Shown here piece after piece: positions 44,507-47,385 of a stretch of DNA of 64,000 bases. Position 1 is the first letter of the stretch. Every line of letters begins with the position of its first letter. This DNA comes from an uncultured Erysipelotrichaceae bacterium (GTDB taxonomy: Bacteria > Bacillota_I > Bacilli_A > Erysipelotrichales > Erysipelotrichaceae): the NCBI GenBank assembly GCA_944325685.1, contig CALVBC010000006.1, positions 1 through 64,000 on the forward strand, in the 5' to 3' direction. The notes under the pieces are model-generated. The model was not told where the DNA came from, ran no database searches, and saw only the letters and a program-made list of their open reading frames with translations. A program made the translations under genes and the position numbers.

Positions 44507-44535
44507 ATTTTACTCGATTATATACATTTTTCCAA
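44507..44535 (-). promoter_or_regulatory. Promoter of DUF4143 ATPase copy 1
   Basis: On the minus strand TTGGAA (44530-44535, inside the first repeat) - 17 bases - TAAAAT (44507-44512). The leader before the ATG at 44489 would be about 11 bases. Confidence 0.45.
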
Positions 44536-44603
44536 CCATAAATAGACATAATTTATACACTTTTCCAACCTAAAATATGCTCATTTTATACGTTTTTCCA
44601 ACC
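44521..44603. repeat. Three direct repeats at exact 33-bp spacing
   Basis: TATACATTTTTCCAACC (44521-44537), TATACACTTTTCCAACC (44554-44570) and TATACGTTTTTCCAACC (44587-44603). 15 of 17 positions are invariant. Spacing of three helical turns places all on one DNA face, as for operators or iterons, between the ATPase gene and the small RNA promoter. Confidence 0.9.
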
Positions 44604-44614
44604 TAAATAGATGA

Positions 44615-44620
44615 TATAAT
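44615..44620 (+). promoter_or_regulatory. -10 box of small RNA copy 1
   Basis: TATAAT in the extended form TGATATAAT (44612-44620). The same box precedes the second copy at 45001. Confidence 0.55.
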
Positions 44621-44626
44621 ACTAGT

Positions 44627-44685
44627 GCGAAATCTCGCATGAGAACAGAAAGAAAGGAGTGGCGGCAACCACTCCTTTCATTATG
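44627..44685 (+). ncRNA. Small RNA, candidate antitoxin (copy 1)
   Basis: Predicted ~55-60 nt transcript from the TGATATAAT box. It contains a 5' hairpin (TGCGA-aatc-TCGCA), the direct repeat CTCGCATGAGAACAG (44634-44648) and an 11-bp terminator stem GAAAGGAGTGG/CCACTCCTTTC (44652-44662, 44669-44679). The second copy keeps the 5' stem through a T-A to C-G change, which supports a functional RNA. It is convergent with a small hydrophobic ORF, and the repeat can pair with that mRNA. Confidence 0.6.
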
Positions 44686-44879: not shown

Positions 44880-44997
44880 ACTTTTCGACTTCAAAAATAG
44901 GAATTTTGGGTATTTTTCTGCATTATGCTGCCCTAATAGTATCGTTTCGAAAGTAGCTATAAAATGTCCAGCATAAGCTAAACACAAATCAAAATGA
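44880..44997. other. Non-coding spacer between the two small-RNA copies
   Basis: AT-rich; no credible gene. An 8-bp inverted repeat TTATGCTG (44923-44930) / CAGCATAA (44969-44976) is present. I see no second toxin-like ORF. Confidence 0.6.
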
Positions 44998-45012
44998 TGA
45001 TATAATACTAGC

Positions 45013-45070
45013 GCGAAATCTCGCGTAAAGATGGAAAGAAAGGAGTGGGGCCAACCACTCCTTTCATTAT
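45013..45070 (+). ncRNA. Small RNA copy 2 (orphan antitoxin-like)
   Basis: About 80 bp nearly identical to copy 1: TGATATAAT at 44998-45006, hairpin CGCGA-aatc-TCGCG (45012-45025), terminator stem GAAAGGAGTGG/CCACTCCTTTC (45038-45048, 45055-45065). The T-A pair of copy 1 is C-G here. No toxin-like ORF on its right; mgtE ends there and may use this hairpin as terminator. Confidence 0.6.
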
Positions 45071-45100: not shown

Positions 45101-46429
45101 CTATATCCCAAATAATGCAACGGCGACATTGAAATAGATGAGGATCGAACAGGTATCAACGACTGTGGTGATAAGCGGTGATGCCATGATCGCTGGATCC
45201 ATCTTCAACTTCTTTGCAGCTAAAGGTAAGATACAACCGAGTGACTTTGATAAGATGACGGTCAATAATAGTGTGATACCGATAACTAGAGCTAAAAGGA
45301 TATCGTCATATTGGATAGCGATCCTGACTCCATTTACGACCGCTAAGATGATACCGACTAAGATCGCTACGCGGATCTCTTTAAACCAGACTTTAAAGAC
45401 ATCCTTAGTCTCGATCTCACCTGTAGCTAGCCCTCTGATGACCAGTGTCGATGCTTGCGAGCCACAGTTACCACCGGTGTCCATAAGCATCGGGATAAAG
45501 GATACTAAGATCGGGATCGAGGCAAAAGCCTCTTCGTAATGGGTGATGATCGTACCGGTGATCGTCGCACTTAGCATGAGTATAAGTAACCACACGATAC
45601 GGTGTTTGGTATGTTCGATGACACTCATATCGAAGTATGATTCATCACTTGGTGTTACGGCTGCCATGATCTCAAAGTCTTCACTGGCTTCATCTTGCAT
45701 GACATCCATCGCATCATCGACGGTGACGATACCGACAAGCCGATCCTCACTATCGACAACAGGCATCGCTAAGAAGTCGTATTTATCAAACATCTTGGCG
45801 ACATCTTCTTTGTCCATCAAGGTATTGATCTTGATGACGTTGTCTTCTAAGAGTTCTTTGATCTTGGTATCTTTATCAGCTAGTAGTAATTCTTTGACCG
45901 TTATGACACCGACTAACTTCCTTTGATCATCGATGACATATAGCGTATAGATCGTCTCTTTATCCTTACCGATCTTCCTTATCCTGTCAAATGCTTCCAT
46001 GACTGTCATATTCTCTTTGAGATCGACAAATTCAGTGGTCATGATACTACCGGCACTATCTTCAGGATACTTTAGTAGTTCATTGATCGCTGTCCTTTTA
46101 TCGCTTGCGGTATTAGCTAAGATCTTTTTGACTAGGTTTGCCGGCATCTCTTCGACAAGATCGGTCACATCATCAAGATAGAGCTTACTTACGACATCCT
46201 TGACTTCATCATCGGTCATCGCTTCAACAAGTCTCTCCCTTGTATCTGATTCCATCCTCGAGAAGACATCAGCTGCTTCATCCTTGTTCAATAGCCTGAA
46301 GACGATGGCCGCATCTTCTTTGTCTAGTTCATCGATAATCTCAGATATGTCAGCTTGGTTCATATCCGCAAGTAAAAGCTTTAGTTCACTAAAGTTATTT
46401 TGTCTTAATAATTCGATTATTTTTTCCAT
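45101..46429 (-). CDS. mgtE: Magnesium transporter MgtE
   Basis: 442-aa Mg2+ channel. N domain (EKIIELLRQNNFSELKLLL...), two CBS domains (about 135-250; VGVITVKELL, VGIVTVDDAMDVM) and five C-terminal helices with PMLMDTGGNCGSQASTLVIRGLA (pore motif) and LITTVVDTCSILIYF. Mg2+ binding to the CBS/N domains closes the pore. SD AGGAGG before the ATG. A 22-codon leader ORF lies upstream; no M-box was seen. Confidence 0.97.
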   Translation of the reverse strand: MEKIIELLRQNNFSELKLLLADMNQADISEIIDELDKEDAAIVFRLLNKDEAADVFSRMESDTRERLVEAMTDDEVKDVVSKLYLDDVTDLVEEMPANLVKKILANTASDKRTAINELLKYPEDSAGSIMTTEFVDLKENMTVMEAFDRIRKIGKDKETIYTLYVIDDQRKLVGVITVKELLLADKDTKIKELLEDNVIKINTLMDKEDVAKMFDKYDFLAMPVVDSEDRLVGIVTVDDAMDVMQDEASEDFEIMAAVTPSDESYFDMSVIEHTKHRIVWLLILMLSATITGTIITHYEEAFASIPILVSFIPMLMDTGGNCGSQASTLVIRGLATGEIETKDVFKVWFKEIRVAILVGIILAVVNGVRIAIQYDDILLALVIGITLLLTVILSKSLGCILPLAAKKLKMDPAIMASPLITTVVDTCSILIYFNVAVALFGI

Positions 46430-46448
46430 TTTAGACCTCCTTTATATC

Positions 46449-46517
46449 TTAGTTTTTAGAAGGTATATCGAAGCAGTGATATGTACTGATCAATATACTT
46501 CGCGGCCTCTCATCCAT
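46449..46517 (-). CDS. 22-aa leader peptide ORF upstream of mgtE
   Basis: ATG at 46515-46517 with a perfect AGGAGG 7 bases upstream; product begins MDERPRSILISTYHCF and ends PSKN. It stops 19 bases before the mgtE ATG. The acidic/proline N-terminus recalls the Mg2+-sensing MgtL leader of enterobacteria. A weak hairpin GAAG.TATAT...ATATAC.CTTC spans its second half. Confidence 0.5.
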   Translation of the reverse strand: MDERPRSILISTYHCFDIPSKN

Positions 46518-46542
46518 ATCACCACCTCCTTTTGGCTAATCA

Positions 46543-46548
46543 ATTATA
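46543..46548 (-). promoter_or_regulatory. -10 box of the mgtE leader transcript
   Basis: TATAAT on the minus strand (extended as TGTATAAT), about 26 bases before the leader ORF ATG. No clear -35 box. Confidence 0.4.
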
Positions 46549-46575
46549 CACTAATATTTATTAAATCGGTGTTAA

Positions 46576-46584
46576 TGATATAAT
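46576..46584 (+). promoter_or_regulatory. Extended -10 promoter giving a leaderless HAD mRNA
   Basis: TGATATAAT with 6 bases to the ATG at 46591. An in-frame TGA at 46576-46578 rules out an upstream start. Confidence 0.55.
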
Positions 46585-46590
46585 AAATCT

Positions 46591-47385
46591 ATGAGTATAA
46601 GATTAGTAGCTTTCGATATCGATGGTACACTAATACCAAGGAGTACCACAACGATCGATGATATGACCAAAGATGCTATTAGGGAGTTAGAAAAGAAAGG
46701 GATCAAAGTCGTCATCTCCACTGGTCGTATCGTCACCTTCATGCAAAAAGATGTCATCGACACCATCAAGTCTGACTACTGTATCAGTATCAATGGTGGT
46801 GTTATCACAAATGGTGACTATGATATCATCAAGACCTATCCGATGAGTGAAGATAACTTTAATAAGATCATATCATTAGCGGATGAGTATCACTTTGGTA
46901 TCGGCTTTAAATATCCCAAAGAGATAGCGGTCTATAATGAATTTGACCTGTATATGAGCGTCTATGATCCTAAAGGTCTATATACCAAGCTCATAAATGA
47001 CTATACCAAGACTCGCGATTATCATAAAACACATGGCATGCCTGTTGGCTGTTTCTGGATCGGTGACAATGATATCTTAGCTAAAGCCGCTAGTGAGATC
47101 GATATGAATTGTGTCTATTCATATGATAGAGGCCGAGAATGCTTCAACAGTGATGTCTCTAAATCAGAGGCTCTAAGATGGGTAGCTAATAAACTTGGTA
47201 TATCGATGGATGAAGTCATGGCTTTTGGTGATAGTGACAATGATATCGATATGCTTAAAGCCGCAAAGATCGGCGTAGCGATGGGCAATGCCACCAAGAC
47301 TACCAAAGATATCGCTGACTATATCACCGATGATTGTGATAAATATGGTATCCCTAAAGCTTTGAAACACTTTGAGATCATATAG
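46591..47385 (+). CDS. Cof-type HAD-IIB phosphatase
   Basis: 264 aa. Motif I VAFDIDGTLIPRST, motif II VVISTGRIVTFMQ, motif III Lys region NSDVSKSEALRWVANKLG, motif IV VMAFGDSDNDIDMLK. Typical sugar-phosphate/FMN phosphatase size; substrate unknown. Monocistronic on the plus strand, divergent from mgtE; no SD and a -10 box 6 bases before the ATG. Confidence 0.93.
   Translation: MSIRLVAFDIDGTLIPRSTTTIDDMTKDAIRELEKKGIKVVISTGRIVTFMQKDVIDTIKSDYCISINGGVITNGDYDIIKTYPMSEDNFNKIISLADEYHFGIGFKYPKEIAVYNEFDLYMSVYDPKGLYTKLINDYTKTRDYHKTHGMPVGCFWIGDNDILAKAASEIDMNCVYSYDRGRECFNSDVSKSEALRWVANKLGISMDEVMAFGDSDNDIDMLKAAKIGVAMGNATKTTKDIADYITDDCDKYGIPKALKHFEII

Follow-up and report, generated by a model that had tools for sequence, protein, structure and literature searches.

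A putative Mg2+-sensing leader peptide before mgtE in an uncultured Erysipelotrichaceae bacterium, with related acidic leaders before mgtE and corA in other Bacillota

The mgtE locus and its upstream reading frame

We analyzed the region upstream of mgtE in a stretch of 64,000 nt from an uncultured Erysipelotrichaceae bacterium (contig CALVBC010000006.1 of assembly GCA_944325685.1), hereafter the window. The gene encodes a protein with the standard MgtE order of N domain, CBS domains and channel domain in Pfam, and is preceded by a short upstream open reading frame (uORF) that has its own Shine-Dalgarno sequence (SD):

45101..46429, (-) strand: mgtE, Mg2+ channel of 442 aa (Pfam MgtE, PF01769; MgtE_N, PF03448; CBS)
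46435..46443, (-) strand: SD of mgtE (AAAGGAGGT), segment 4 of the leader, read from the sequence and from SD scoring
46449..46517, (-) strand: uORF of 22 codons, MDERPRSILISTYHCFDIPSKN, with Asp2, Glu3 and Pro5
46523..46534, (-) strand: SD of the uORF (AAAAGGAGGTGG), 9 contiguous matches at a spacing of 7
46543..46548, (-) strand: TATAAT, candidate -10 of the leader promoter, read from the sequence

An earlier note on this DNA had described a 22-codon ORF with a strong SD and the start MDERPRS lying between a promoter and mgtE, a description that is borne out by the 9-nt SD match, the TATAAT upstream and the gap of 19 nt between the uORF and mgtE. The uORF sits between mgtE and a plausible -10, and a TATAAT occurs at about the same upstream distance in all four mgtE leaders of the genus (L001-L004). 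Our promoter scan gave the TATAAT at 46543-46548 no score because the -35 is poor, with no good match found. A divergent gene for a HAD hydrolase begins at 46591.

Several other elements lie nearby. A 7-codon ORF, MRGREVY (46490-46513, (-) strand), is found in another frame, starting 4 nt past the uORF start with a worse SD spacing, and genome G003 has an ORF MKDREVY at the equivalent position. Downstream of mgtE, an 80-nt direct repeat (44605-44684 and 44991-45070, 86% identical) ends in both copies in a AAAGGAGTGG..CCACTCCTTT hairpin and is adjoined by three 21-nt units with 33-nt spacing (44517-44603).

The two transcriptional outputs that we considered find no support. There are no terminator-like sites in 46350-46700, such that the criterion for attenuation by an intrinsic terminator is not met, and this output was rejected. 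No Rho gene was found in the genome, the highest scores with the Rho model being 41 and 30 bits where the cut-off is 509; an MgtL-type Rho output, therefore, cannot apply. In Bacillota, mgtE-type genes are controlled by Mg2+ through the M-box riboswitch (RF00380, the ykoK leader). The earlier note saw no M-box before mgtE, and our searches agree: no Rfam family is matched in the window at gathering scores or in the mgtE leader at E up to 1, and RF00380 was found neither in the whole genome of the window nor in any further genome of the genus that was searched. We rejected an M-box or other overlooked Rfam element on this basis.

Acidic uORFs before mgtE and corA

A chance ORF was rejected from the genome-wide count of SD-ATGGAY sites together with scans of control genes. 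The 1.36 Mb genome contains 14 sites of the form AGGAGG-N4-9-ATGGAY, 13 of which open ORFs of at least 78 aa, while the mgtE uORF is the sole short ORF. Among mgtE leaders of the Erysipelotrichales, a strongly SD-preceded uORF is present in 61/152, and 58 of these 61 carry at least one Asp or Glu within residues 2-10; of all 152 leaders, 45 have a uORF with an acid among residues 2-4. When the same scan was applied to 279 non-mgtE genes, taken from 20 stretches of 20 kb (the window's genome and relatives) plus the window, strongly SD-preceded short uORFs were found within 300 nt of only six, one of which is the gene for ribosomal protein L34 (rpmH, judged by sequence), and acidic residues at positions 2-4 in 0/279. 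With a stricter control that demands at least 100 nt free upstream, 2/93 remain, namely the window's uORF and the rpmH one.

The mgtE set comprises 229 distinct leaders from 250, after leaving out those with less than 120 nt upstream, duplicates and one startless mgtE hit in L029, the second L029 hit being retained. Also included are the second genes in tandem pairs, for which no separate leader exists. No strong uORF was found in 91 of the 152 leaders from the order and 57 of the 77 wider ones. In a phylum-wide set, where uORFs were inspected in seven loci only, L312 (MDGSPSCC) fits, L322 (MADSKLERD) is acidic early on with its ORF far upstream, L319 is not acidic, and four have none. A 19-aa ORF starting MD in G006 (L176) was rejected as chance, lying inside an apparent ABC transporter gene.

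The acidic character is specific to the reading frame and to its start. Over residues 2-10 of the 81 strong uORFs, Asp and Glu make up 20.6% in frame versus 5.5% and 3.7% in the shifted frames, and Lys and Arg 8.4% versus 16.5% at the N-termini of control genes. An acidic residue stands at position 2 in 47/81 uORFs versus 14/93 control N-termini (Fisher p=4e-9). Past residue 10 the bias is gone (Asp and Glu 9%, Lys and Arg 16-17%). Related uORFs differ at 125, 111 and 225 codon positions 1, 2 and 3, respectively, third-position differences being about twice as frequent as those at the first or second, with the caveat that the pairs are not independent. The presence of the uORF and the frame-specific acidity are direct observations; that the uORF is translated is inferred from its SD, its frame and this codon-position pattern.

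Within the genus, MDERPRSIL is identical in G000 and G003, the closest mgtE-bearing relative, despite two synonymous changes, and after it an indel puts the two in different frames. Other mgtE uORFs of the genus start MDGSPH and MDGHERS. The earlier note had proposed looking for a conserved acidic/Pro start in related mgtE leaders and had counted non-conservation as a refutation; these genus-level starts, and the strong acidic and proline bias confined to the N-terminus across the order, mean that the proposal survives. The in-frame bias at the N-terminus alone, with frame drift after it, indicates that a short acidic start is selected, not the whole peptide. A functional small protein acting on MgtE could likewise account for the conserved presence and frame of the uORF, and we find this highly improbable, given that G000 and G003 share nine residues before entering different frames and that lengths and C-termini of the mgtE uORFs vary freely.

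The uORFs are not uniform in their starts or in their relation to mgtE. Those of Ruminococcus type (L056, L057, L062, L065, L066, L085 and L089) use a GTG start, and at residues 9-15 most of them have a further motif, GCKPRSC, possibly an arrest motif in its own right. The uORF overlaps mgtE in 26/81 leaders (negative gap). Those of the MFYKDNDVPEPS and MNIRIDNEKSEP types (L008, L009, L011, L012, L148, L222, L227, L228, L233, L244 and L251) overlap with the start of mgtE over 22-38 nt, which amounts to another design of the output.

A second, unrelated Mg2+ transporter family is preceded by uORFs of the same kind. In the nine genus genomes (G000-G008), MgtE occurs without CorA in four, including the window's, in which no CorA was found, and CorA without MgtE in another four, with neither found in G007. 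The two are mutually exclusive in the genus, and uORFs of the acidic/Pro kind precede both; the four corA uORFs start MSLDADGH, MSLDSDGH, MSSDPIG and MSSDPLG. In the order, an SD-preceded uORF is present at 22/44 CorA loci and is of the acidic/Pro kind at 21 of the 22, mostly MSPEPE or MSPEPD, with MSSDP and MSLDSD among the others. These 44 are the best-scoring loci rather than all, CorA having been found in 16/26 and 83/148 genomes. Control regions to this set yield an SD-preceded uORF in 7/92, one of them acidic (MRYEERG); this one was discarded as the tail of a 58-aa ORF and not a real short uORF. A search for an SD followed by MSPEP matched in 5/395 genomes of the class, and all five matches lie 162-169 nt before a CorA domain. 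Nothing argues more strongly for a link between the peptide and Mg2+ than the occurrence of one kind of leader peptide before two unrelated families of Mg2+ transporter, and the specificity for such transporters is itself directly observed. On the evidence of sequence, the window's uORF falls within a widely distributed group of leader peptides, short and acidic, before Mg2+ transporters.

The frequency of Pro at residues 2-10 (6.9% versus 1.3% in controls) also raises the question of whether the leader is an attenuator that responds to amino acids or to the general state of translation (charged tRNA, EF-P or starvation) and serves Mg2+ transporters only incidentally. A precedent exists in the Pro-responsive leader of Salmonella mgtCBR, as given in the accessible part of PMC8092293. 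We regard this reading as quite unlikely: no single residue is common to the set, mgtE leaders of the MDVHLC, MDDGSS and MEGHEQ types lack an early Pro, acidity is the feature that they share, and both targets are Mg2+ transporters.

Outside the genus, the acidic uORF occurs both alone and in tandem with an M-box, which is absent from the window's leader. RF00380 is present in 24/196 genomes of the order. Among loci from other clostridia, those picked for their uORF contain an M-box in 3/20 (L055, Clostridium ihumii L106 and C. bovifaecis L107), with the uORF located between the M-box and mgtE in all three, and those picked as lacking a strong uORF contain one in 4/20. With the M-box found both with and without it, the uORF neither excludes nor needs the riboswitch. 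In G038 and G040, both of the order, an M-box is followed by a uORF starting MDEG and then by mgtE; this uORF was missed by our scan rule because its overlap with mgtE is too long. The tandem arrangements of M-box and acidic uORF in the two named Clostridium isolates are those at 1081-1247 of L106 (C. ihumii) and 1012-1173 of L107 (C. bovifaecis). The suggestion that a leader peptide has "replaced or parallels" the riboswitch fits in both senses, there being no M-box here and tandem arrays in other lineages.

Predicted folds of the leader and their response to the ribosome

The window's leader is predicted to form alternative helices from four segments, the last of which is the mgtE SD listed above:

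46515..46528, (-) strand: segment 1, comprising the start codon of the uORF and its SD and supplying the 5' arm of helix 1:2 (MFE, 14 bp; duplex versus shuffles p=0.010)
46490..46498, (-) strand: segment 2, 5' arm of hairpin 2:3, within the loop of 1:2, predicted to form with a ribosome on segment 1
46470..46483, (-) strand: 3' arm of helix 1:2 in the distal uORF, from folding
46463..46471, (-) strand: 3' arm of hairpin 2:3, overlapping the 3' arm of 1:2 and the anti-SD, from folding
46458..46464, (-) strand: segment 3, the anti-SD (ACCUUC type), which pairs with the mgtE SD, from folding

Without a ribosome, 1:2 and 3:4 are formed and the unpaired probability of the mgtE SD is 0.00. With a ribosome masked on codon 2, hairpin 2:3 forms, 1:2 is excluded and 3:4 is weakened. 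The mutual exclusion of these helices and the computed response of the fold to the position of the ribosome are observed directly. Support in this one leader is uneven, with the downstream hairpin borderline against shuffles (p=0.050) and helix 3:4 alone not significant (p=0.17 and 0.30).

Judged by folding each leader independently, equivalent helices occur in other lineages with different primary sequences. When the full set of 81 mgtE leaders was tested initially, mean z values were -1.77 for 1:2, -0.68 for 3:4 and +0.10 for a control segment. Subsequent counts refer to the 42 of these 81 with a gap of -3 to 75 nt and an acidic residue within residues 2-8, and to 21 acidic corA leaders. Helix 1:2 falls below dinucleotide shuffles at p<0.05 in 31/42 mgtE and 19/21 corA leaders, the distal hairpin in 32/42 and 20/21, and helix 3:4 in 12/42 and 17/21. 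Strong and conserved alternative helices are also what would be expected of an as yet unknown Mg2+-binding RNA switch to which the uORF is incidental. We think this very unlikely; no Rfam family is matched, and between lineages it is the reading frame that is kept and not the primary sequence of the helices, unlike what is expected of a metal aptamer.

The computed choice of fold by ribosome position is clear in the corA leaders, weak in the mgtE set and marginal in the window's leader. The corA SD is free with a probability of 0.13 without a ribosome, 0.49 with one at codons 0-3 and 0.14 with one at codons 7-11. Its accessibility with an early ribosome rises in 16/21 leaders and falls in three, with a mean difference of 0.36 versus 0.04 in shuffled leaders. 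For mgtE, 9/42 leaders rise by more than 0.1 and one falls, as compared to 16/210 rising among shuffles, in which the mean leans in the opposite direction (-0.075). In the window's leader, the effect is small: accessibility of the SD is 0.20 and 0.13 at codons 0-1 and close to 0 for most of the codons that follow as far as 13 (0.12 in one case), or 0.08 versus 0.06 for the codons sampled in the test against shuffles, and freeing the SD while a ribosome occupies codon 2 requires about 2 kcal/mol. G005 gives 0.15-0.43 at codons 0-4 versus 0.00.

The SD is predicted to open late in the uORF as well, its accessibility in L001-L004 reaching 0.5-1.0 for a ribosome at codons 14-22. These values, and the gap of 12-30 nt from uORF stop to mgtE start in many leaders, would suit positive translational coupling, in which ribosomes finishing the uORF melt 3:4 and re-initiate on mgtE while the acidic start merely tunes expression down. 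We consider such coupling unlikely, if not to be dismissed. It would shut off an importer under Mg2+ shortage, the terminating ribosome would itself cover the SD, completion of the uORF should block rather than help in the 26/81 leaders in which it overlaps mgtE, and helix 1:2 and hairpin 2:3 would be left unexplained.

A proposed ribosome-based Mg2+ sensor and its known counterparts

We think it likely that the uORF encodes a leader peptide that senses Mg2+ through the stability of the ribosome translating it, and that it acts as a translational attenuator. At low Mg2+, the acidic and proline-containing start (Asp2-Glu3-Arg-Pro5) would destabilize or slow the ribosome within the first few codons, a drop-off rather than a stable pause being an inference, as is Mg2+ as the signal. 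A ribosome that has initiated without advancing would keep segment 1, the uORF start region, occupied; helix 1:2 would then be broken, hairpin 2:3 would form and draw the anti-SD off the mgtE SD, and mgtE would be translated. With ample Mg2+, the ribosome would pass through segment 2, helix 3:4 would close over the mgtE SD and mgtE would be off, with a ribosome at the uORF end also covering that SD. In leaders with overlapping uORFs, a ribosome finishing the uORF would run over the mgtE start. The sign of this regulation in vivo is likewise inferred. Weighing against this reading are the marginal early-codon effect in the window's leader and the weak one in the mgtE set, the leaders without a strong uORF, and the fact that MDERP offers no more than two adjacent acids.

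Chadani 2017 is said to be the founding paper on ribosome destabilization. The principle is already known, sensing of Mg2+ through intrinsic destabilization of the ribosome having been established in enterobacteria. There, the EPDP motif of MgtL leads to ribosome drop-off at low Mg2+ (PMC11282234, accessible portion), and bL31 counters ribosome destabilization (PMC8092293, accessible portion); bL31 is present in the window's genome. According to the accessible text of PMC11282234 and PMC11552253, MgtL of mgtA in E. coli and Salmonella resembles the present leader in being a short uORF with an acidic, proline-containing start before a Mg2+ transporter, in having two exclusive RNA folds with a stem that holds the uORF SD, and in that efficient translation of the uORF represses, as proposed here. 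Unlike MgtL, the uORFs described here precede MgtE and CorA rather than MgtA and have no Rho output available, and no homology to MgtL is evident from sequence.

The closest anatomical match to the mgtE leader is mgtQ before mgtB in Salmonella, where the Asp and Glu codons (Asp2/Glu5) free the mgtB ribosome-binding site (RBS) through 1:2 and 3:4 versus 2:3 (PMC8092293, as far as accessible). Common to both are Asp2 with a second acid near the start, the same set of alternative helices, a transporter RBS within 3:4 and a translational output (same source, same extent), although mgtQ has 8 codons and is intergenic within an operon, in another phylum and before another transporter. The corL leader of corA in E. 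coli and Salmonella also has competing folds and an inverse relation between uORF and corA expression, but the accessible text of PMC11552253 describes it as poorer in Pro and acidic residues and as working by way of Rho, while the corA uORFs found here are rich in both. The pe20 M-box of M. tuberculosis with its uORF2 is alike in uniting a Mg2+ element and uORFs in one leader, and unlike in that uORF2 is the target of the M-box and encodes a mycobacterium-specific peptide (PMC12810186, in its available part). The "mgtE motif" of 2024 is a riboswitch candidate confined to Thioalkalivibrio, according to the available part of PMC11109978. A search of open-licence PMC papers, preprints not included, turned up no such leader peptide upstream of mgtE or corA in firmicutes; as far as we could find, such Mg2+ sensors are known from enterobacteria and not from the Erysipelotrichales group.

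With somewhat less assurance than for the single locus, we favor the broader reading that the Bacillota have a broad, convergent class of leaders in which the ribosome serves as Mg2+ sensor. These would be acidic/Pro peptides before MgtE and CorA, translational without Rho and in some leaders placed after an M-box so as to add a second gate; their output would take two forms, an anti-SD switch and a uORF that overlaps the transporter start. Lineages with an M-box and an acidic uORF in one leader, such as C. ihumii and C. bovifaecis, would reveal the way in which a pair of independent Mg2+ sensors is combined. If sensing of this kind has arisen separately, or persisted, in the Bacillota for other transporters, ribosome stability would be a general bacterial gauge of Mg2+.
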